The notes below the pieces were generated by a model. That model was not told where the DNA came from, did not search any database, and saw only the letters and a program-made list of their open reading frames with translations. From NCBI RefSeq assembly GCF_002937115.1, contig NZ_NHRY01000139.1:62001-126000 (forward strand): DNA of 64,000 nt. Reading direction: 5' to 3'. How positions within the stretch are numbered: position 1 is the stretch's first letter; every line of letters starts with the position of its first letter. Below, piece by piece: positions 7,375 through 60,920 of the stretch. Origin of the DNA: Rhodopila globiformis (lineage in GTDB: Bacteria; Pseudomonadota; Alphaproteobacteria; Acetobacterales; Acetobacteraceae). A program made the translations under genes and the position numbers.

Positions 7375-7453
7375 CGTCGTGGCCGGGCGTGTCCCGGCCA
7401 TCCACCCCCCAACCGTTGAAGCGCAGATGGCCGGGACACGCCCGGCCACGACG
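7375..7453. repeat. Dispersed palindromic repeat, copy 1
   Basis: Two perfectly complementary 27-base arms (7375-7401 and 7427-7453) with core ggccgggcgtgtcccggcc flank a 25-base loop. The single strand could fold into a very stable hairpin. The element belongs to a family with copies near 11.8, 25.1, 31.2, 41.8, 47.6 and 52.7 kb. It sits between the hydrolase start and a small-protein gene, and a half copy lies at about 7515-7541. Confidence 0.95.
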
Positions 7454-11737: not shown

Positions 11738-11886
11738 GAGCGGGGTCGTCTCTCTCGCACGGAGCGAGGCCGTCTCTCTCTCCCACGGCGCAAGGTCGTC
11801 TCCCTATCGTCATGGCCGGGCGTGTCCCGGCCATCTGCGCTTCAACGGTTGGGGGGTGAACGGCCGGGACACGCCCAGGCATGACG
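11738..11886. repeat. Palindromic repeat copy 2 with repeated 'cgtctctct' shoulder
   Basis: The arms at 11808-11834 and 11861-11886 form the family palindrome with one mismatch. About 70 bases upstream repeat an approximate unit 'gg(t/c)cgtctctct' three times. The same shoulder precedes copies 1, 6 and 7, so it is part of the dispersed unit. Confidence 0.85.
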
Positions 11887-23039: not shown

Positions 23040-23803
23040 TGGCCGCGCTCCGGGCGGAAGCGGCGGCGGTAGTCGGGATCATACAGGGCGCTTTCGCGGA
23101 AAGCGTCGGCCTCCAACGCACGCCCGACCAGCACCAGCGCGGTACGCTCGATCGGTGCCGCGGCAAGCTGGGCGGCTATGGAGGACAGCGTGCCGCGCAC
23201 CACGCGCTGGTCGGACCAGCTTGCCCGTTCCACCACCGCCACCGGACAGTCCGCGCCATACAGTGGCGTCAGTTCGGCGACGATGCGGTCCAGCGCGTGG
23301 ATCGCCAGGTGGATCGCCAGCGTCGCGCCGGTGGCGCCGAACGCCGACAGAGTCTCCGTTGGCGGCATTGCCGAGGCGCGGCCGGAGACGCGGGTCAGCA
23401 CCAGGCTCTGCGCCACCTCCGGCACCGTCAGCTCCTGCCCGAGCACCGCGGCGGCGGCGGCGAAGGCGGGGACGCCGGGGGTCAGCGTATACGGAATGCC
23501 AAGCCGCCGCAGCCGCCGGACCTGCTCGGCCACCGCGCTGTACACCGACAGGTCGCCGGAGTGCAGCCGCGCGACGTCCTCGCCCGCTTCATGCGCCTTG
23601 ACGTATTCCGCCTCGATCTCATCCAGCGACAGCGGCGCGGTGTTGACGATGCGGGCGCCGGGCGGGCAGTGCGACAACAGGTCCTCCGGCACGATCGAGC
23701 CGGCGATCAGGCACACCGGGCAGCGCGCCAGCAAATCCCGCCCGCGCAGGGTGATCAGGTCCGCGGCGCCCGGGCCGGCGCCGATGAAATGCACGGTCAT
23801 CAC
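23036..23803 (-). CDS. cobM: Precorrin-4 C11-methyltransferase
   Basis: CobM methylates C11, yielding precorrin-5. The 255-residue protein has [51 protein letters not shown] and [18 protein letters not shown], the last typical of CobM/CbiF. Four-base overlaps tie it to cobN upstream and cobI downstream. Confidence 0.95.
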
Positions 23804-26800
23804 TCGTCTCCAGACAGAAGGCCGATCACCGCGTTGCGGCGGGGGCGCCAGAGGTCGCGGCGCAGGGCTTCGCGCAGCCGCGCCTGCATTGCCGCGCGGG
23901 CCTGCGGATTCGCGGCGCGCAGGAAGTCATCCACCTCGGGGTTGCCCAGCGTGGCGTCGAACAGCAGGTCGAACGGGCGGTCCAGCCGCTGTGGCAGGGT
24001 GGCGGCGAAGGCGAACAGCCCGTCGACGGCGCGGGCGATCTCGGCGCCGCCGCGGTAGCCGTGCCGCATCATGCCGGCGATCCAGGCCGGATTGGCGGCG
24101 CGGCCGCGGGTCACCAGCGCGACTTCCTCGATCAGCGTGCGAGTGTGGGGAGCCTCGGGCTGCGAGGTGTCCAGGTGGTACAGCGCCGGAAGCTGCCCCA
24201 GCGCGTCCGCCGCCGCCGCGAAGCCGCCCTCGTGCGCGGCATGTTCGCCGCCGTCCAGCAGGTCGGTCTCGCGATGGTCCTGGGGGTGAACGAAGGCATC
24301 CGCGGCGGCGACGCGCGCTGAAAAATCGGCGCCGCAGTCCAGCCCGCTGCCGTAGGCATGGGCCGAGCCGGCCAGGTAAGCGGCGCCAAGCGCGGCGCGG
24401 TCGCGCCAGGTGCCGGCGGCCAGCGCCGCGTCCACGCCGGCGCCGTAGTCGCCGGGCGCGCTGCCGTAGATCCGGGCGGTGGCGCGGCGAAACGCCTCGG
24501 CGTCCAGGCCGCGTGCCGTGGCGGCCAGGCGGTTCCAGTCCGGCGCCTCGTCGCGTTCCGCCACCAGGCGGACGGCGGAGTCGAACAGCAGGATTTGCTG
24601 CTCGAACATGTCGCGGAACAGGCCGGAGATGCGCAGCGTCACGTCCACCCGGGGGCGGTCGAGCACCGCCAGCGGCAGCACGGTGACGCCGGTGACGCGG
24701 GCCGATGAATCGTCCCATGTCGGCCGCACGCCCAGCAGCACCAGGGCGAGGGCAAGATCCTCGCCGCCGGTGCGCAGGCTTGCGCTGCCCCACAGGTCCA
24801 GCACCAGCGACCGCGGCCAGTCGCCATGGTCCTGCAGGTGCCGGCGCAGCAGGTCGTCGGCCGCCCGCTCGGCCAGCGCGACGGCGGAGCGGGTCGGGAT
24901 GGTGCGCGGATCGACGGTGAACAGGTTGCGCCCGGTCGGCAGCACGTCGGCCCGCCCGCGCGTCGGCGCGCCGGCCGGGCCGGGGGCGACCCAGCGGCCG
25001 TCGAGCGCGGCGCACAGGGCGGCGGCTTCGGAAGGAGCGCAGCGGTCGAGGGCAGCTTCGATCCGGGCGAACGTCGGGTTGGCGTCGTGGCGGTGCGCAT
25101 CGGCAGGCGGCAGGAGCGCCCCCTCGGCCCTCTCCGCCCCATCGTCATGGCCGGGCGTGTCCTGGCCATCCACCGCCCGCCGCTGAAGCGCAGATGACCG
25201 GGACACGCCCGGCCATGACGATGGGGCTGGGGCTCGCCGCCCGACGTCCCCGCACGCCCGGCGCAGCGCCGCCACCAGCGCCGCGCGGCTGTCCGCACCC
25301 GGCGCCTGCCCGAACACATGCAGCCCGTCGCGGATCTGCAGTTCCTTCACGTCGCACAGGTAGGCATCCAGCCGCGCCAGCGCCTCGTCCTCCGGCGCAT
25401 CCGGCGCCACACCGCTCTCCGCCAGCAGGCCCAGCGACGCGGCACGGTCCAGCACCTCCCGCCGCAACAGCGTGGCGCGGCGGCGGTCCAGGCCATCGGC
25501 GACGGCGTATTCGTCGATCAGCCGCTCCAGTTCGATGGCGCCGCCATGGCTGCCGGCGCGCTTCAGCGGCGGGGTCAGGTGGCCGATGGTGACGGCGCCC
25601 AGCCGGCGCTTGGCCGCGGCGGCCTCGCCGGGGTTGTTGACGATGAACGGATAGACCACCGGCAGCCCGCGGCACAGCGCCGCCGGCGTGCAGGCCTCCG
25701 ACAGCGCCACCGCCTTGCCCGGCAGCCACTCCAGCGTGCCGTGGGTGCCGAGATGCAGCAGCGCATGCGCGTCAAGCCGCATCCGCAGCCACAGGTAGAA
25801 CGCGACATAGGCATGCCGCGGCGGCTGGACCGGATCGTGATAGGTCGCGCGGCGCTCCTCGGCGCGGCCGCGTTCGGGCTGCACCGCCAGCACGAAGCCG
25901 CCCCGGCGCACGTGGCGGAGCACGAACTGTCCGTCCTGCACCGCCGCATCGGCTTCCGGCTCGCCCCAGCACGCCAGGATGTCCTGCCGCAGCGCCGCCG
26001 GCAGGGTGGTGAAGACATCCCGGTAGTCCGCGACGGTCAGCAAAGGGGCCGGTGGCGCCTCGGTCAGCATCCGGGTCAGCGCGGCCGCGCCGGGCGAGGC
26101 ACCGCCGGTGTCGTAGCCCTGTCCGGCCAGCAGCGACAGGATGGCATCGAGGCTGGCGAAGCTGTCCAGGCCGACGGCGTGCCCGACCTGTCCGCCCTCG
26201 CCGGCGGCACCGGGGTAATCCGACAGCACCACCGCCACCCGCCGCCCACCGCGCGGCGTCGCCGCCAGCCGCGCCCAGCCCAGCGCCCGGTCCGCCGCCA
26301 GGGCAACGCCTGCCTCATCGGCGCAATGCCGGGTGCGGGCGAATTCCAGCATCGGCTCCGGCGCCGCCTGCTGCTTGAACGCGATCGCCGTCGTCAGCAG
26401 CCGCCCGTCCAGTTCCGGCAGCACCACCTGCATGGCCAGGTCCGCCTGAGACAGGCCGCGGCTGGACTCCGCCCAGGCCTCGCGCGCCGCGCCCGACAGC
26501 AGCACCTGCAGCACCGGCACGCCGGCGGCATCCAGCGGCGAGCCGGCATCGCCCTGCGCCGCGCTGAAAGCGGTCGCGTTCAGCACCACTGCCGGCGCCC
26601 AGTCCCGCAGCCGCGCCGCGACGAACGCGCCCACGTCCGGGTCCTTGAGGCTGGATACATACACCGCCCGCACGCCGAATCCGCGATCGGCCAGGGCGGC
26701 GGCCAGCGTCTCCACCGGCGCGATGTCGCCGGCCAGCAGATGCGCGCGGTAGAACACGATCACCGCCAGCCCGGCCTCGCCCGTCGCCGGCACCGGCAGG

Positions 26801-27342
26801 GCATGCTCGCCGGCATCGGGCACCGGCACGGGCGGCGCGGGGCAGGGGGCATCCAGCCCGCCCAGCCGCGCCGCCAGCCGCAGCGCCTGCGCCAGGTTGT
26901 CCGGGCCGCCGTGCCGCAGATAGGCATCCATCTGCCGCAGCGCCGCCTCCGGCACCGTGGACAGCGCCGCCAGCCGCGGGTCGTCGCGCGCGTCGCCCGG
27001 TACGATCGCCAGCGCGATGCCCAGGCGCCGGCAGTGCGCCGCCACTTCCTCGGCACCGTAGGTCCAGTAGTCCAGCCCGCCGAGCAGGCGGACGAGCACA
27101 CAGCGTGCCCGCGCCACCACCTGCTCGACATACAGGTCCACCGACATCGGATGCCGCAGCCGCCCGAGGCTGGCCAGCCGCAGCGACGGCCGCCCGTCGC
27201 CCAGCGCCTCCCACACCGCGGCGGCGGCGGCCAGGTCGCTGTCGGCGAACGACAGCAGCACGATATCGGCCGGAGTCTGGCCGAGATCCTCCGCGCGCTG
27301 CTCGTCGTCGAGCGTCCGGCCGTCCTGGACCAGAAGATGCAT
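23800..27342 (-). CDS. cobN: Cobaltochelatase large subunit CobN, carrying an in-frame palindromic insert
   Basis: CobN is the tetrapyrrole- and cobalt-binding subunit of the ATP-dependent chelatase acting on hydrogenobyrinate diamide; its CobS and CobT motor subunits are not in this window. The 1180 residues contain family blocks such as [72 protein letters not shown] and [17 protein letters not shown]. Residues about 707-734 are encoded by a complete copy of the dispersed palindrome ([14 protein letters not shown], then DGQDTPGHD). They fall in a linker between [10 protein letters not shown] and the LPTGRN block, so the enzyme may still work. Four-base overlap with cobM. Confidence 0.95.
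25141..25222. repeat. Dispersed palindromic repeat, copy 3, inside cobN
   Basis: Arms at 25141-25169 and 25194-25222 are near-perfect complements with the same loop type as the intergenic copies. The reading frame of cobN passes through without a stop and continues into conserved CobN sequence on both sides, so this is a genuine protein-coding insertion. Confidence 0.95.
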
Positions 27343-30636: not shown

Positions 30637-31151
30637 TTCAGTTGCACCGGGCAGCCGGCGACCAGCAGCCAGGCCTCGGTGGCGGCGGCGGCGGTGCGCT
30701 GGCCCAGCCAGCCGGTCAGGTCGCGGAAGCGCCGCAGGGCGGCATCCATCGGCACCGGGCTCCAGCCGATTTCGTCGCCGACGATCACCACGGGGTAGGG
30801 CGCGGCGCGCAGGCGGTGAAGCAGCGCACTCCATGCGTCGAGGATGGCGGCGTCCGGCTGGTCGAACCGCGCCGCGGCCCACAGCACGATGCTGTCCAGC
30901 AGCACGCCGGCGGGCGGCGGCGACAGCGCGTCCAGTGCGGCGGCGATGTCGGCGGGCGCTTCCAGGGTGCGCCAGCCGGGCGGACGCTCGGTCTGGTGGC
31001 GGCGGACCCGCTCTAGCATGTCGGCGTCGTCCGGGTCGGTCTGCCAGGTGGCGATGAACACGACGCCGTCGCCCCAGGCGCGGGCGATGTCCACCGCCCG
31101 CGCGCTCTTGCCGCTGCGCACCGGGCCGGTGAGGAAGGTCAGCTCAGCCAT
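30633..31151 (-). CDS. cobP: Bifunctional adenosylcobinamide kinase/guanylyltransferase
   Basis: CobP (CobU in Salmonella) phosphorylates adenosylcobinamide and attaches GMP. The 172-residue protein has the P-loop FLTGPVRSGKSARAVDIA, FIATWQTDPDDADMLERVRRHQTERPPGW (split over the guanylylated-His region, RRHQ), and VVIVGDEIGWSPVP. ATG 31151 (MAELTFLTGP) was chosen; in-frame residues upstream derive from the palindromic repeat. The start overlaps the extended cbiO reading frame by eight bases. Confidence 0.95.
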   Translation of the reverse strand: MAELTFLTGPVRSGKSARAVDIARAWGDGVVFIATWQTDPDDADMLERVRRHQTERPPGWRTLEAPADIAAALDALSPPPAGVLLDSIVLWAAARFDQPDAAILDAWSALLHRLRAAPYPVVIVGDEIGWSPVPMDAALRRFRDLTGWLGQRTAAAATEAWLLVAGCPVQLK

Positions 31152-32076
31152 GCGGGGGCCTTTCGCGGCGAAGCGGGGCGGCGGCCGCTCCGTCAGGGGC
31201 CGCCAATTCGTCATGGCCGGGCGTGTCCCGGCCATCGGCGCTTCGACGGTGGGGAGTGGATGGCCGGGACACGCCCGGCCATGACGGTGAGGAAACGGGC
31301 CGCCGCCCATCGGCGAACCGCCGCGGCCGCAGCCCGGCGGCGGCGATCACCGGCGCGTCGTCCAGTACCGCGGCGGCGCCGCCGTGCGCGATCACCCGGC
31401 CCTGGTGCAGCACCGCCACCTCATCCGCCCAGTGCCGCGCCAGCAGCAGGTCGTGCGTCGAGAACACCACCGTCATGCCCTGCGCATGCAGCGCGTCGAG
31501 GTGATCCAGCAAAATGTCGATCCCCGCCGGGTCCAGCCCGGCCGTCGGCTCGTCCAGCACCAGCATGGCCGGGCGCATCGCCAGCGCCCCGGCGATCGCC
31601 GCCCGCTTGCGCTGGCCGTGGCTGAGCATGTGCGGCGGCAGCGCGCCGAGCGCCTCCAGCCCCACCGCCGCCAGCGCCGCCGCCACCCGGCGCGCCACCT
31701 CGGCCGGATCCAGCCCGAGGTTCAGCGGCCCGAAGGACACGTCCTGCGCCAGCGTGCCGGCGAACAACTGGTCGTCCGGGTCCTGGAACACCAGCGCCAC
31801 GGCCTGCCGCAGCGCCGCCAGCCCGCGGCGGCTGTAGTCAATCGGCTGCCCCTGCCAGCGGACCTCGCCGGATGCCGGGCGCAGCGTGCCGTTCAGGTGC
31901 AGCAGCAGCGTCGATTTGCCCGAGCCGTTGCCGCCGAGCAGCGCCAGCCGCACGCCCGGCCGCACTGCCAGGCTCGCTCCGGCCAGGGCCTCGCGGCGCT
32001 GCCCGGGCGCCCGCGCCGCGGCGGCTTCGGTGCCGGGCCAGGCGTAGCGCAGGCCGATGGCGTCCAGCAGCGTCAT
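31144..32076 (-). CDS. cbiO: Cobalt ECF/ABC transporter ATPase with repeat-derived C-terminus
   Basis: CbiO powers cobalt import through CbiMNQ. Visible are Walker A LLGGNGSGKSTLLLHLNG, the Q-loop VFQDPDDQLFAGTL, LSHGQRKRAAIAGALAM (signature), Walker B MLVLDEPTAGLDP and the switch His in VFSTHDLLLA. The ABC fold ends near residue 255. Residues ~264-290 (SWPGVSRPSTPHRR, DGRDTPGHD) are encoded by a palindromic repeat, with about 20 further residues to a stop just inside cobP. The insertion has therefore replaced or extended the natural C-terminus. Confidence 0.95.
   Translation of the reverse strand: MTLLDAIGLRYAWPGTEAAAARAPGQRREALAGASLAVRPGVRLALLGGNGSGKSTLLLHLNGTLRPASGEVRWQGQPIDYSRRGLAALRQAVALVFQDPDDQLFAGTLAQDVSFGPLNLGLDPAEVARRVAAALAAVGLEALGALPPHMLSHGQRKRAAIAGALAMRPAMLVLDEPTAGLDPAGIDILLDHLDALHAQGMTVVFSTHDLLLARHWADEVAVLHQGRVIAHGGAAAVLDDAPVIAAAGLRPRRFADGRRPVSSPSWPGVSRPSTPHRRSADGRDTPGHDELAAPDGAAAAPLRRERPPHG
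31209..31286. repeat. Dispersed palindromic repeat, copy 4, in the 3' end of cbiO
   Basis: Perfect 27-base arms at 31209-31235 and 31260-31286. It is read in the same frame and strand sense as copy 3 in cobN, giving the related peptide SWPGVSRPS...DGRDTPGHD. It lies inside the riboswitch operon between the cbiO core and cobP. Confidence 0.95.
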
Positions 32077-33827: not shown

Positions 33828-35252
33828 TCAGGGACAGGCGGTGGCGCGCAGCCGGGCGACCAGGCGGTCCGCCAGGTCCGGGCGCTGGGCGAGGGGGATG
33901 TGCAGATAGCTGGCCAGCAGGCCCTTGTCAGCATGGCCGGCGGGCATGGGTGATGCGCCGGCGCGGGTGCCACAGGCGCGCCAGGCGGGGGCGGGCGGCG
34001 CGGCGGCACGGTCCCAGGTGCTGTAGTGGAACTCGTGGCCGCGCAGCGTATCGCCGGCATCGGCCAGCGAGGTGTCGGCCAGGGCGGTGGCCTCGCGGTA
34101 GCCCAGCGCGGCCAGGCGCGGGGTCATGCGCGTCTCGCCCGGCACCAGGCCGGCCATCGTGTGGCGTGCGCCGCCGGCATCGACCAGCGCTTCGGTCAAC
34201 GCCATGAAGCCGCCGCACTCGGCCAGCAGCGGGGCGCCGCGGGCGTGCAGGGCGCGCAGGTCCTGCCACAGGCCGGTGTTGGCGCTGAGCGCGCGCGCAT
34301 GCAGTTCCGGATAGCCGCCACCGAGCCAGACGCCGGCGGCGCCGGGCGGCAGACGCTCGCCGGCGACCGGGCTGAACCAGGCGAGGCGCGCCCCGGCGGC
34401 GGCGAGCAGGTCGAGGTCGTCCTGGTAGTAGAAGGCGAAGGCCGCATCGCGGGCCACCGCCAGCATTGGCCCATCCGTTGGCCCGTCCGCTGGCCCATCC
34501 GCTGGCCCGTCCGCTGGCCCGTCCGCTGGCCCATGCGCCGCCGGTGCCGGGGCGGGCAGGGGCGGCGCCGCCGCGGCCAGGCGCAGCAGCGCATCGAGGT
34601 CGAAGCGGGCGGCCACCGCCTCGGCCGCGGTGTCCAGCACCGCGTCGGCGGATCCAGCCTCGGCGGCGAGGTGCAGGCCGAGGTGCCGCTCCGGCACCGT
34701 CAGCCCGGTTTCGCGCGGCAGCCAGCCAAGGATCGGCAGGCCGGTCGCATCGGTGATCGCCGCGCCGCAACCGCGCGCGTGCCGTTCGGAGCCGGCGAAG
34801 TTCAGCGCCACTGCCGCCACCGGGCGGGCCGGATCGAACCGGGCGAAGCCGAGCGCGGTCGCCGCGGCGCTGCGGGCGGAGCCGGATATGTTCAGCACCA
34901 GCAGCACCGGCGCCTGCACCAGGGCGGCGATCTCGGCGGCGGAACCGGCGTCGCTGTCGAAGCGGGCGCCGTCGAACAGGCCCATCACGCCCTCGATGAT
35001 GGCGATGTCGGCGCCGGCGCAGCCGCGGCGGAAGCTGTCGCGCATGGCCTGTTTGCCCAGCATCCAGGTGTCGAGGTTGCGGCACGGGCGGCCCGCGGCG
35101 CGGCTGTGCCAGCCGGGGTCGATGTAGTCGGGACCGCACTTGAACGGCTGCACCCGCAGGCCGCGGCGGCGCAGCACGCCGATGAGGCCGGCTGTCAAGA
35201 GCGTCTTGCCGACGCCCGAGCCGGTGCCGGCGATCAGCAGGCGGGGGATCAT
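33828..35252 (-). CDS. cobB: Hydrogenobyrinate/cobyrinate a,c-diamide synthase with Gly-Pro-Ala-Asp tandem linker
   Basis: CobB amidates the a and c side chains using glutamine and ATP. The 474-residue protein has the P-loop-like LLIAGTGSGVGKTLLTAGLIG, FKCGPDYIDPGWHS, IIEGVMGLFDGARFDSD, and a class I amidotransferase domain with GVWLGGGYPELHA, the catalytic Cys in PLLAECGGFMAL and GHEFHYSTWDR. Between the domains, residues ~239-262 are a repeat of the tetrapeptide GPAD/GPTD encoded by a 12-base tandem repeat. It overlaps cobC by four bases. Confidence 0.95.
   Translation of the reverse strand: MIPRLLIAGTGSGVGKTLLTAGLIGVLRRRGLRVQPFKCGPDYIDPGWHSRAAGRPCRNLDTWMLGKQAMRDSFRRGCAGADIAIIEGVMGLFDGARFDSDAGSAAEIAALVQAPVLLVLNISGSARSAAATALGFARFDPARPVAAVALNFAGSERHARGCGAAITDATGLPILGWLPRETGLTVPERHLGLHLAAEAGSADAVLDTAAEAVAARFDLDALLRLAAAAPPLPAPAPAAHGPADGPADGPADGPADGPTDGPMLAVARDAAFAFYYQDDLDLLAAAGARLAWFSPVAGERLPPGAAGVWLGGGYPELHARALSANTGLWQDLRALHARGAPLLAECGGFMALTEALVDAGGARHTMAGLVPGETRMTPRLAALGYREATALADTSLADAGDTLRGHEFHYSTWDRAAAPPAPAWRACGTRAGASPMPAGHADKGLLASYLHIPLAQRPDLADRLVARLRATACP
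34467..34538. repeat. 12-bp tandem repeat in cobB
   Basis: About six units of tggccc(a/g)tccgc in tandem keep the frame and encode alternating Gly-Pro-Ala-Asp in the linker between the synthetase and glutaminase domains. Such arrays often change length by slippage without damaging the protein. Confidence 0.9.
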
Positions 35253-41824: not shown

Positions 41825-41902
41825 CGTCATGGCCGGGCGTGTCCCGGCCATTTGCGCTTCGACGGTGGGGGGTGGATGGCCGGGACACGCCCGGCCATGA
41901 CG
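41825..41902. repeat. Dispersed palindromic repeat, copy 5
   Basis: Perfect 27-base arms at 41825-41851 and 41876-41902 lie between convergent cobQ and the 68-residue small-protein gene. The resulting hairpin could act as a bidirectional terminator, though no U-tract follows. Confidence 0.95.
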
Positions 41903-47560: not shown

Positions 47561-47640
47561 GCCGTTACTTCCCCGTCATGTCCGTTACTTCCCCGTCATG
47601 TCCGTTACTTCCCCGTCACGGCCGTTCTCTCTCCGTCATG
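47561..47640 (+). repeat. 20-bp tandem repeat, four units
   Basis: Units at 47561, 47581, 47601 and 47621 share ccgttacttccccgtcatg; the fourth is degenerate and runs into the left arm of palindromic copy 6. The array appears to be a multiplied shoulder of that element. Confidence 0.9.
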
Positions 47641-47711
47641 GCCGGGCGTGTCCCGGCCATCCACCCCCCGCCGCCGCAGCGCAGATGGCCGGGACACGCC
47701 CGGCCATGATG
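47634..47711. repeat. Dispersed palindromic repeat, copy 6, between dmpL and dmpM
   Basis: Arms 47634-47660 and 47685-47711 differ by one position at the outer end. The hairpin would form in the polycistronic dmp transcript between two subunits of one enzyme. It could alter relative expression or mRNA processing. Confidence 0.95.
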
Positions 47712-52572: not shown

Positions 52573-52653
52573 CGTCATGGTCGGGCGTGCCCCCATGCAT
52601 ATCAGGATAATGGTGGTTGGAGAAAGGTTTGCCGGCGCGGCCGCTCTCTCTTC
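52573..52653. repeat. Half-palindrome and composite shoulder before copy 7
   Basis: A degenerate arm (ccgtcatggtcgggcgtgc) is followed by gcatatcaggataatggtggttggagaaagg, matching in order the region beside copy 1 at 7.45-7.54 kb in reverse. The rest of 52458-52572 shows nothing recognisable. Confidence 0.65.
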
Positions 52654-52730
52654 GTCATGGCCGGGCGTGTCCCGGCCATCCACCCCCCGCCGTCGAAGCG
52701 CGGATGGCCGGGACACGCCCGGCCATGACG
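52653..52730. repeat. Dispersed palindromic repeat, copy 7, between dmpB and dmpC
   Basis: Perfect 27-base arms 52653-52679 and 52704-52730. As with copy 6, it separates two genes of the same catabolic operon, 71 bases before the dmpC start. Confidence 0.95.
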
Positions 52731-58210: not shown

Positions 58211-58366
58211 GGCTCCGGCGCTGCGCCGGCGGCGTGGTCCGGTTTCCGGCCTGGGGCAACCGGGACGCTGGCACAGGGGTGGCTGCGTCAGGTCAGCCTG
58301 CGGTCGCGATCCACCCGGGCGTGCGGGATGGTGGGCGTGATCCGGCCGCGTTCGCCGCGCCGGCGG
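58211..58366. repeat. Diverged dispersed repeat, copy A
   Basis: The segment shares ccggcgctgcgccgg, cgtggtccggtttccgg, ggctgcgtcaggtcag and cgtgatccggccgc, in the same order and spacing, with 60745-60920. No gene is evident in the 58051-58366 spacer. The two copies bracket the toxin-antitoxin island. Confidence 0.7.
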
Positions 58367-60745: not shown

Positions 60746-60920
60746 GACCCGGCGCTGCGCCGGCGCTTGAACGCCGTGGTCCGGTTTCCGGCTTGGTTCA
60801 GCCGGGACGCTGGCTCAGGGACGGCTGCGTCAGGTCAGCAACCGGTTGCGTTTCACCCGGTCGTGCGGGGCGGCGAGCGTGATCCGGCCGCATTCGCCGC
60901 GCTGCGGGCGGACCACGCGG
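60745..60920. repeat. Diverged dispersed repeat, copy B
   Basis: This segment shares at least four blocks in order with 58211-58366 (see copy A). It occupies most of the 60746-61107 spacer; the remainder holds a stem-loop at 61054-61074 near the IS end. Confidence 0.7.

Follow-up and report, generated by a model that had tools for sequence, protein, structure and literature searches.

The cobN gene of Rhodopila globiformis carries within its reading frame a head-to-head dimer of REP sequences of the CGTC class. It is highly likely that this non-autonomous element was copied into a permissive linker of the cobaltochelatase subunit CobN, happened to stay in frame, and is now tolerated as a flexible loop whose peptide has no function of its own. 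The gene occupies positions 23800..27342 (reverse strand) of the window, by which we mean the whole 64,000-nt stretch of DNA analysed here. Its 1180-aa frame runs without a stop codon, palindrome included, and was assigned by a Pfam match to PF02514 (CobN-Mg_chel, E 5.4e-281) spanning residues 140-1170 and by a Foldseek match of its AlphaFold model to the solved CobN 7c6o (E 5.1e-88). The surroundings form a cobalamin and cobalt-uptake cluster, in which a Pfam search places two corrin methylases below cobN and, above it in this order, a CobW-type gene, a frame matching no Pfam family, a corrin methylase, an ABC ATPase, CbiQ, and CbiN.

Anatomy of the Repeat within cobN

The dimer (25143..25220, 78 nt, codons of residues 708-734) is composed of two 27-nt monomers on opposite strands. 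The first, at 25143..25169 of the forward strand, has the CGTC tag, a 9-bp stem, and a 5-nt loop; the second lies at 25194..25220 of the reverse strand, and a 24-nt spacer of the GAAGCGC type (25170..25193) separates them. Both arms carry the CGTC tag, each has a single substitution relative to the query, and 73 of the 78 positions agree with the consensus of subfamily A, to which this copy belongs, leaving five differing sites. On either side follows an outer arm (25126..25142, degenerate in this copy, and 25221..25238, both with approximate boundaries) of a kind conserved among the copies of the genome. The predicted RNA fold of 25131-25232 reaches -83.3 kcal/mol, as compared to -44.5 +/- 4.2 kcal/mol for 200 dinucleotide shuffles (z = -9.22), none of which folds equally well. 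The palindrome, with its two 27-nt arms, indeed lies inside an unbroken cobN frame, as the first-pass annotation had claimed. The coding signal is present on both sides of the dimer (scores 47.6 and 29.9, third-position GC 0.90 and 0.90).

The CobN Linker and Conservation of the Enzyme

Between the fixed anchors at residues 681 and 781, the window CobN has 101 residues, whereas the closest relative found (L001, 72% identity, labelled Acetobacteraceae) has 45. The linker is 15-45 residues long in 65 of the 70 aligned rows, an alignment from which rows with best-segment identity below 45% were excluded and in which seven rows duplicate a gene already included; the remaining five rows have 119-136 residues there, of a different sequence. 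Close relatives with a similar linker, named in advance as evidence against an insertion, were therefore not observed in this alignment. The size of the addition had been underestimated: instead of about 28 residues, the net gain over the closest relative is about 56, of which the dimer encodes about 26 and the outer arms about 12, while about 18 are unaccounted for by the repeat unit; the ends of the insert are approximate, the nearest relatives being too diverged to fix them. In the CobN loci of named relatives, no REP was detected at up to six mismatches of 27 (0 of 80 loci, 722,510 bp).

The AlphaFold model, built with 48 rows, has a mean pLDDT of 87.9 and a pTM of 0.88. Its only long stretch with pLDDT below 50 is residues 700-754 (codons 25081..25245, reverse strand), which are extra with respect to the relatives; the model places them in a linker between predicted helices 683-698 and 758-766, in agreement with the linker position proposed earlier, and draws two short helices within them. 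Such low confidence is weak evidence of disorder, as it is expected anyway for a stretch that the relatives lack.

Conservation extends to both sides of the insert, another point on which the initial reading held. The window CobN retains every one of the 121 columns that do not vary among the other 47 rows. Differences from the closest relative at codon positions 1/2/3 amount to 0.160/0.141/0.350 before the insert and 0.137/0.113/0.363 after it, that is, third positions differ 2.2 and 2.6 times as often as first positions. Judged by these sequence patterns, cobN encodes a conserved enzyme and is not a pseudogene, although part of the conservation signal predates the insertion.

The Repeat Family in the Genome and Genus

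The draft assembly (7.25 Mb, 278 contigs) contains 671 forward and 653 reverse half-sites with at most two mismatches, 1,324 in total, and the reversed control yields none. In 427 kb, comprising the window and 19 other stretches, 52 opposed (head-to-head) dimers were counted, most commonly 78 nt (22 dimers), 80 nt (13), or 79 nt (11) long; other arrangements of neighboring half-sites are fewer, and their lengths are scattered. Alignment of both arms of 168 dimers demonstrates that conservation continues for about 17-22 nt outside the CGTC tag. Hence what spreads is a unit of roughly 115-120 bp, and the element regarded at first as complete at about 80 bp in fact extends further on each side. 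Each of the four tag letters has a frequency of 0.99 in the 336 arms, partly by construction, since the search pattern itself contained CGTC (at most three mismatches allowed). The two main subfamilies are A (83 dimers, 58 of them of 78 nt) and B (72 dimers, 53 of them of 80 nt), and 13 dimers are mixed. The consensus of subfamily A is ATGGCCGGG / CGTGT / CCCGGCCAT, followed by CCA, with stem, loop, and tail as in CGTC REPs.

The window contains seven REP dimers, five of which (7375..7453, 11808..11886, 41825..41902, 47634..47711, and 52653..52730) lack a frame having coding signal on both sides. The other two are the cobN dimer and one at 31209..31286, read in frame at the end of a cbiO-like gene. 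The initial description of dispersed copies lying between genes is therefore correct as to dispersal, given the 1,324 half-sites of the genome, and not as to location for the cbiO-like copy. Tandem 20-bp units CCGTTACTTCCCCGTCATGT at window positions 47562-47641 directly adjoin one of the dimers.

In the 32 genus mates (designated G001 and so on, this genome being G000), the number of half-sites ranges from 0 in G022 to 548, as compared to 1,491 in G000 with the same, slightly wider pattern. A search for transposases, using PF01797 (Y1, RAYT-type domain) and covering G000 and 20 of the 32 genus mates, gave no match in G000, which is 98.55% complete; among the control genomes, 5 of 14 matched. 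The domain is present in four of the 20 genus mates, not the repeat-richest ones (half-sites: 105 in G006, 28 in G007, 7 in G013, and 26 in G020), and the repeat-rich G010 (417 half-sites) and G001 (366) have no PF01797.

Rarity of In-Frame Copies

Copies within reading frames are exceptional, the repeat showing a strong avoidance of genes. Among the 27 dimers surveyed systematically at first, none was called in a coding frame, as opposed to 912 of 2,000 random places. A two-sided coding test for internal in-frame dimers was positive for one of the seven dimers of the window and for three of 45 in stretches partly chosen for in-frame hits (L155-L173). In stretches chosen regardless of frame it was positive for 0 of 57 (L174-L233) and 0 of 33 (L234-L253, contigs picked mostly for holding repeats resembling the cobN copy), 0 of 90 altogether. 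The avoidance is consistent with selection against most insertions into genes.

A search for more in-frame copies, suggested at the outset, was productive: four internal cases were added to CobN, namely a VWA-domain protein, alanine racemase (Alr), PutA, and HypF with two repeats, as well as the CbiO-like tail. Of the 176 distinct dimers surveyed in total, five are crossed by a coding frame according to a one-sided test; HypF is missing from these five because of the second repeat upstream. The widest in-frame search used two consensus peptides, scoring the best 150 of 864 and the best 150 of 792 candidates.

Several groups of candidates were rejected. Many hits of the consensus peptides fell in long open frames, and 20 stretches chosen for this (35 dimers) had coding signal on both sides in 0 of 35 cases. 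The best-looking long frame, of 1110 aa on contig 86, turned out to lie upstream of what we take, without a family search, to be an RND-type transporter gene. In a GC-rich genome, the length of an open frame is by itself no evidence. Two single half-sites called in frame, each with three mismatches, are probably chance matches and were discarded. Weak repeat-like half-sites in the CobNs of sister species (residues ~1030-1110, three to five mismatches) were set aside as a coding coincidence, since that segment aligns without gaps to conserved CobN sequence.

In-Frame Repeats in Other Proteins

In the same cobalt cluster, the 310-aa CbiO-like ABC ATPase (31144..32076, reverse strand) has its C-terminal end encoded by the dimer at 31209-31286, which is read in the same peptide frame as the cobN dimer; this case fails the two-sided test and was detected by the one-sided one. 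HypF (L163:13656-16139, reverse strand) contains its two in-frame REPs between the zinc fingers and the YrdC-like domain. With 450-nt flanks it passes the two-sided test, though at threshold 3 only; with 300-nt flanks it fails because of the second repeat upstream. It was kept on the basis of Pfam and alignment. The same linker of HypF in G008 has a palindrome of another CGTC subfamily (z -8.0). In G006 and G025 it has REP-like peptides whose folding is no better than that of shuffles (z 0.2 and -0.9), so that peptide likeness is what points to a REP origin there, and G020 has no insert in it.

In PutA (L170:10742-14878, reverse strand), the REP lies between the proline dehydrogenase and aldehyde dehydrogenase parts, and the linker is about 80 residues longer than in four relatives. 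In Alr (L169:17863-19146, reverse strand), the REP peptide occupies a loop that is short in 24 of the 25 aligned genus mates (of 32). Alr of G027 (L275) has a different, proline/glycine-rich repeat-like peptide at the same loop. Comparison of the Alr genes gives about 38-40 extra codons; no target duplication was recognised by eye. Finally, the VWA-domain protein has a relative at E 1e-20 in only one of the 32 genus mates, with 37% identity and in the C-terminal part alone.

CobN Linkers in Sister Species

CobN matches of at least 50% identity occur in six of the 32 genus mates, one of them being a 57-residue fragment. Among the five with a comparable CobN, three have other in-frame CGTC palindromes, located in two other linkers, one has a degenerate palindrome, and one has none. 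Fold scores for these linkers and for those of HypF were computed against shuffles that preserve base composition and not dinucleotides. Linker 1, near residue 188, contains a full CGTC dimer in G025 (z -8.2), a TGTC-tagged palindrome in G006 (z -3.6), and a much degraded, slightly displaced palindrome in G013 (z -4.7), and has no insert in G008 (z -0.6) or in the partial CobN of G021. Linker 2, near residue 430, contains palindromes in G008 (z -10.4) and G006 (z -6.4); G025 keeps only a shortened piece, the fold of which is not significant (z -1.7), and G013 and G021 have no insert. G034, from the same family, has no insert in either of these linkers. The linker bearing the insertion of the window is empty in G006, G008, G013, and G025, and the CobN of G021 stops short of it.

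In the CobN tree, the window protein groups with its closest relative L001 (support 100/100), and genus mates G006, G008, G013, and G025 form a separate clade (100/100). From this position in the tree, the cobN gene of the window was probably acquired from elsewhere, likely horizontally, and its insertion would be independent of those in the sister species.

The subfamily found in linker 2 is dispersed, occurring in 19 of the 33 genomes of the genus at up to 120 sites. The linker-2 inserts of G008 and G006 differ at 9 of 90 sites, with three, four, and two differences at the three codon positions, whereas elsewhere in cobN third positions predominate among the differences, at rates of 0.24-0.27. 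The codon pattern expected for a selected peptide is lacking here, yet the insert is less diverged than would be expected of fully neutral sequence; these few sites hint that it is not selected as a peptide.

Proposed Origin and Possible Roles of the Insertion

We propose that a CGTC-REP dimer was copied into the linker between a helix ending at about residue 698 and one starting at about residue 758, an insertion rather than growth in place. By chance, the net gain would have been a multiple of three with an open frame, and the gene would now encode about 55 extra residues. That cobN stayed open is explained by these two circumstances, three of the six frames through the copy being open. The additional residues would form a flexible and neutral loop, which the enzyme may tolerate because linker length varies freely among its relatives, and the protein is presumably made and active. 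The REP-coded peptide itself is most likely functionless. This reading is favored by similar cases in Alr, PutA, HypF, and the VWA-domain protein and in the CobN linkers of G006, G008, G025, and, less clearly, G013.

The palindrome could act instead as an RNA or DNA element of the cobalamin cluster (a transcript hairpin, an attenuator, or a gyrase or processing site), its coding capacity being incidental. The very stable predicted hairpin (-83 kcal/mol), the conservation of the arms as DNA, and the second dimer in the neighboring CbiO-like gene would agree with such a role. However, the stem is not an ordinary terminator, as no T-run adjoins it on the coding strand of cobN; the same repeat is found at hundreds of other sites; and a strong block in mid-gene would presumably cost CobN itself. 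We regard this explanation as unlikely.

Hardly better or worse is the chance of a broader scenario, in which the repeats would serve the genus as a supply of flexible linkers: multidomain enzymes, CobN and HypF among them, would repeatedly take up REP peptides at a few permissive hinges, the inserts would outlast speciation, some of them would become functional, and an enzyme other than the known REP transposases would spread the repeats. Slightly more doubtful still is its counterpart for the peptide as such, namely that it was retained because CobN, or its partners CobS/CobT, would benefit from a linker that is flexible or binds, and that the genus repeatedly recruits REP peptides for this purpose. 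Such recruitment would account for the in-frame palindromes that sister species have in two additional linkers of CobN, for the linker-2 insert common to G006 and G008 and reduced to a short piece in G025, and for the REP-like peptides that several species have in the linker of HypF. Yet the inserts vary in sequence and place; that of linker 1 is absent from G008 and G021, and that of linker 2 is absent from G013 and G021 and mostly lost in G025. Moreover, only two of the nine differences in the linker-2 insert are at third positions, no excess, and dimers avoid genes overall.

That cobN is a pseudogene, or was misassembled at the repeat, might be suspected in a draft of 278 contigs with more than 1,000 repeat half-sites, and we consider it very improbable: both sides belong to one CobN that aligns end to end with its relatives without a stop, all invariant columns are kept, and the codon pattern on both sides is that of purifying selection, whereas a wrong join at the repeat would be expected to fuse two different genes. 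Growth of the linker by ordinary drift or local duplication, with the palindrome arising by chance, would suit a linker that varies from 15 to 136 residues in the 70 rows, and it is negligible in view of the 73 of 78 nucleotides shared with a genome-wide consensus and of a fold that 0 of 200 shuffles equal.

Comparison with Known Palindromic Repeats

The repeat is of an already known kind, since CGTC REPs, some of them within genes, have been on record for years (Di Nocera 2013, PMC3733652). According to the accessible parts of that paper, these have a CGTC tag, an 8-9-bp stem beginning with AT, a 4-5-nt loop, and a CCA tail, form head-to-head dimers with spacers of 20-100 nt, are mostly intergenic, and have no associated transposase genes; intragenic copies in several species encode 20-30 residues, and recB of two Xanthomonas has a REP at about the same site. 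The family described here shares with the CGTC REPs of alphaproteobacteria reported there the tag, stem, loop, CCA tail, dimers, and intergenic bias, as well as the lack of a dedicated tyrosine transposase, in our case by PF01797 search. Two features go unmentioned in the same portions of the paper: the conserved ~17-22 nt outside each tag, and the hits in different linkers of one enzyme in sister species. The paper also lists CGTC repeats as absent from Acetobacteraceae, which our data neither confirm nor contradict. GTAG REPs with RAYT transposases are likewise palindromic, often dimeric, and mostly downstream of genes, with some intragenic copies (PMC3733652, as excerpted); here the tag is CGTC, and PF01797 was not found in G000.

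The likeness to Rickettsia palindromic elements that the first-pass annotation had suggested proves closer than supposed, as RPE-6 and RPE-4 were equated with CGTC families by Di Nocera (PMC3733652, in its available text), and by that description the cobN copy resembles them as a member of the CGTC class. Like RPE-1, RPE-4, and RPE-6, the repeat is found in frame in unrelated protein genes (PMC10969869 and PMC3733652, in part). With regard to the trait typical of such elements, a palindrome inside an open gene with the enzyme kept, the open frame, the invariant residues, and the model all agree, translation being predicted. In contrast to Rickettsia, where nearly half of the first-reported elements were within genes (PMC10969869, partial text), in-frame copies are rare here among hundreds. 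The implied novelty of such a case outside Rickettsia is not supported, given the intragenic REPs published for several other species (PMC3733652, same sections). The 2024 review (PMC10969869, partial text) suggests that repeats may have altered proteins in a similar way in prokaryotes other than Rickettsia. The alphaproteobacterium Lichenicola cladoniae has more than 1,300 REPs (RepRanger 2025, PMC12306157) and is likened to our genome by count alone; the main text of that report makes no use of the word "intragenic".

Among open papers, represented mostly by titles and abstract openings, no earlier report of the cobN insertion was found. Within the literature so covered, three findings are new: the insertion in CobN, the greater length of the repeat unit, and the recurrence of insertions in several linkers of a single enzyme within a genus.

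These observations provide a natural series, in which one metabolic enzyme has palindromic repeats in three different linkers within one genus, and thus make testable the question raised by the Rickettsia elements, whether such insertions are neutral passengers or raw material for protein parts. The host, with a 7.2-Mb genome and probably free-living, is suitable for testing repeat-coded peptides. In addition, this genome is very rich in repeats and yielded no Y1/RAYT gene, which sharpens the question of what moves CGTC repeats.

Two other repetitive features were noted in the window. About six 12-bp tandem units (TGGCCCRTCCGY) lie within a long open frame at 34467-34538, and a direct repeat of 131 nt, with 85% identity between its copies, is present at 58230-58360 and 60772-60902.
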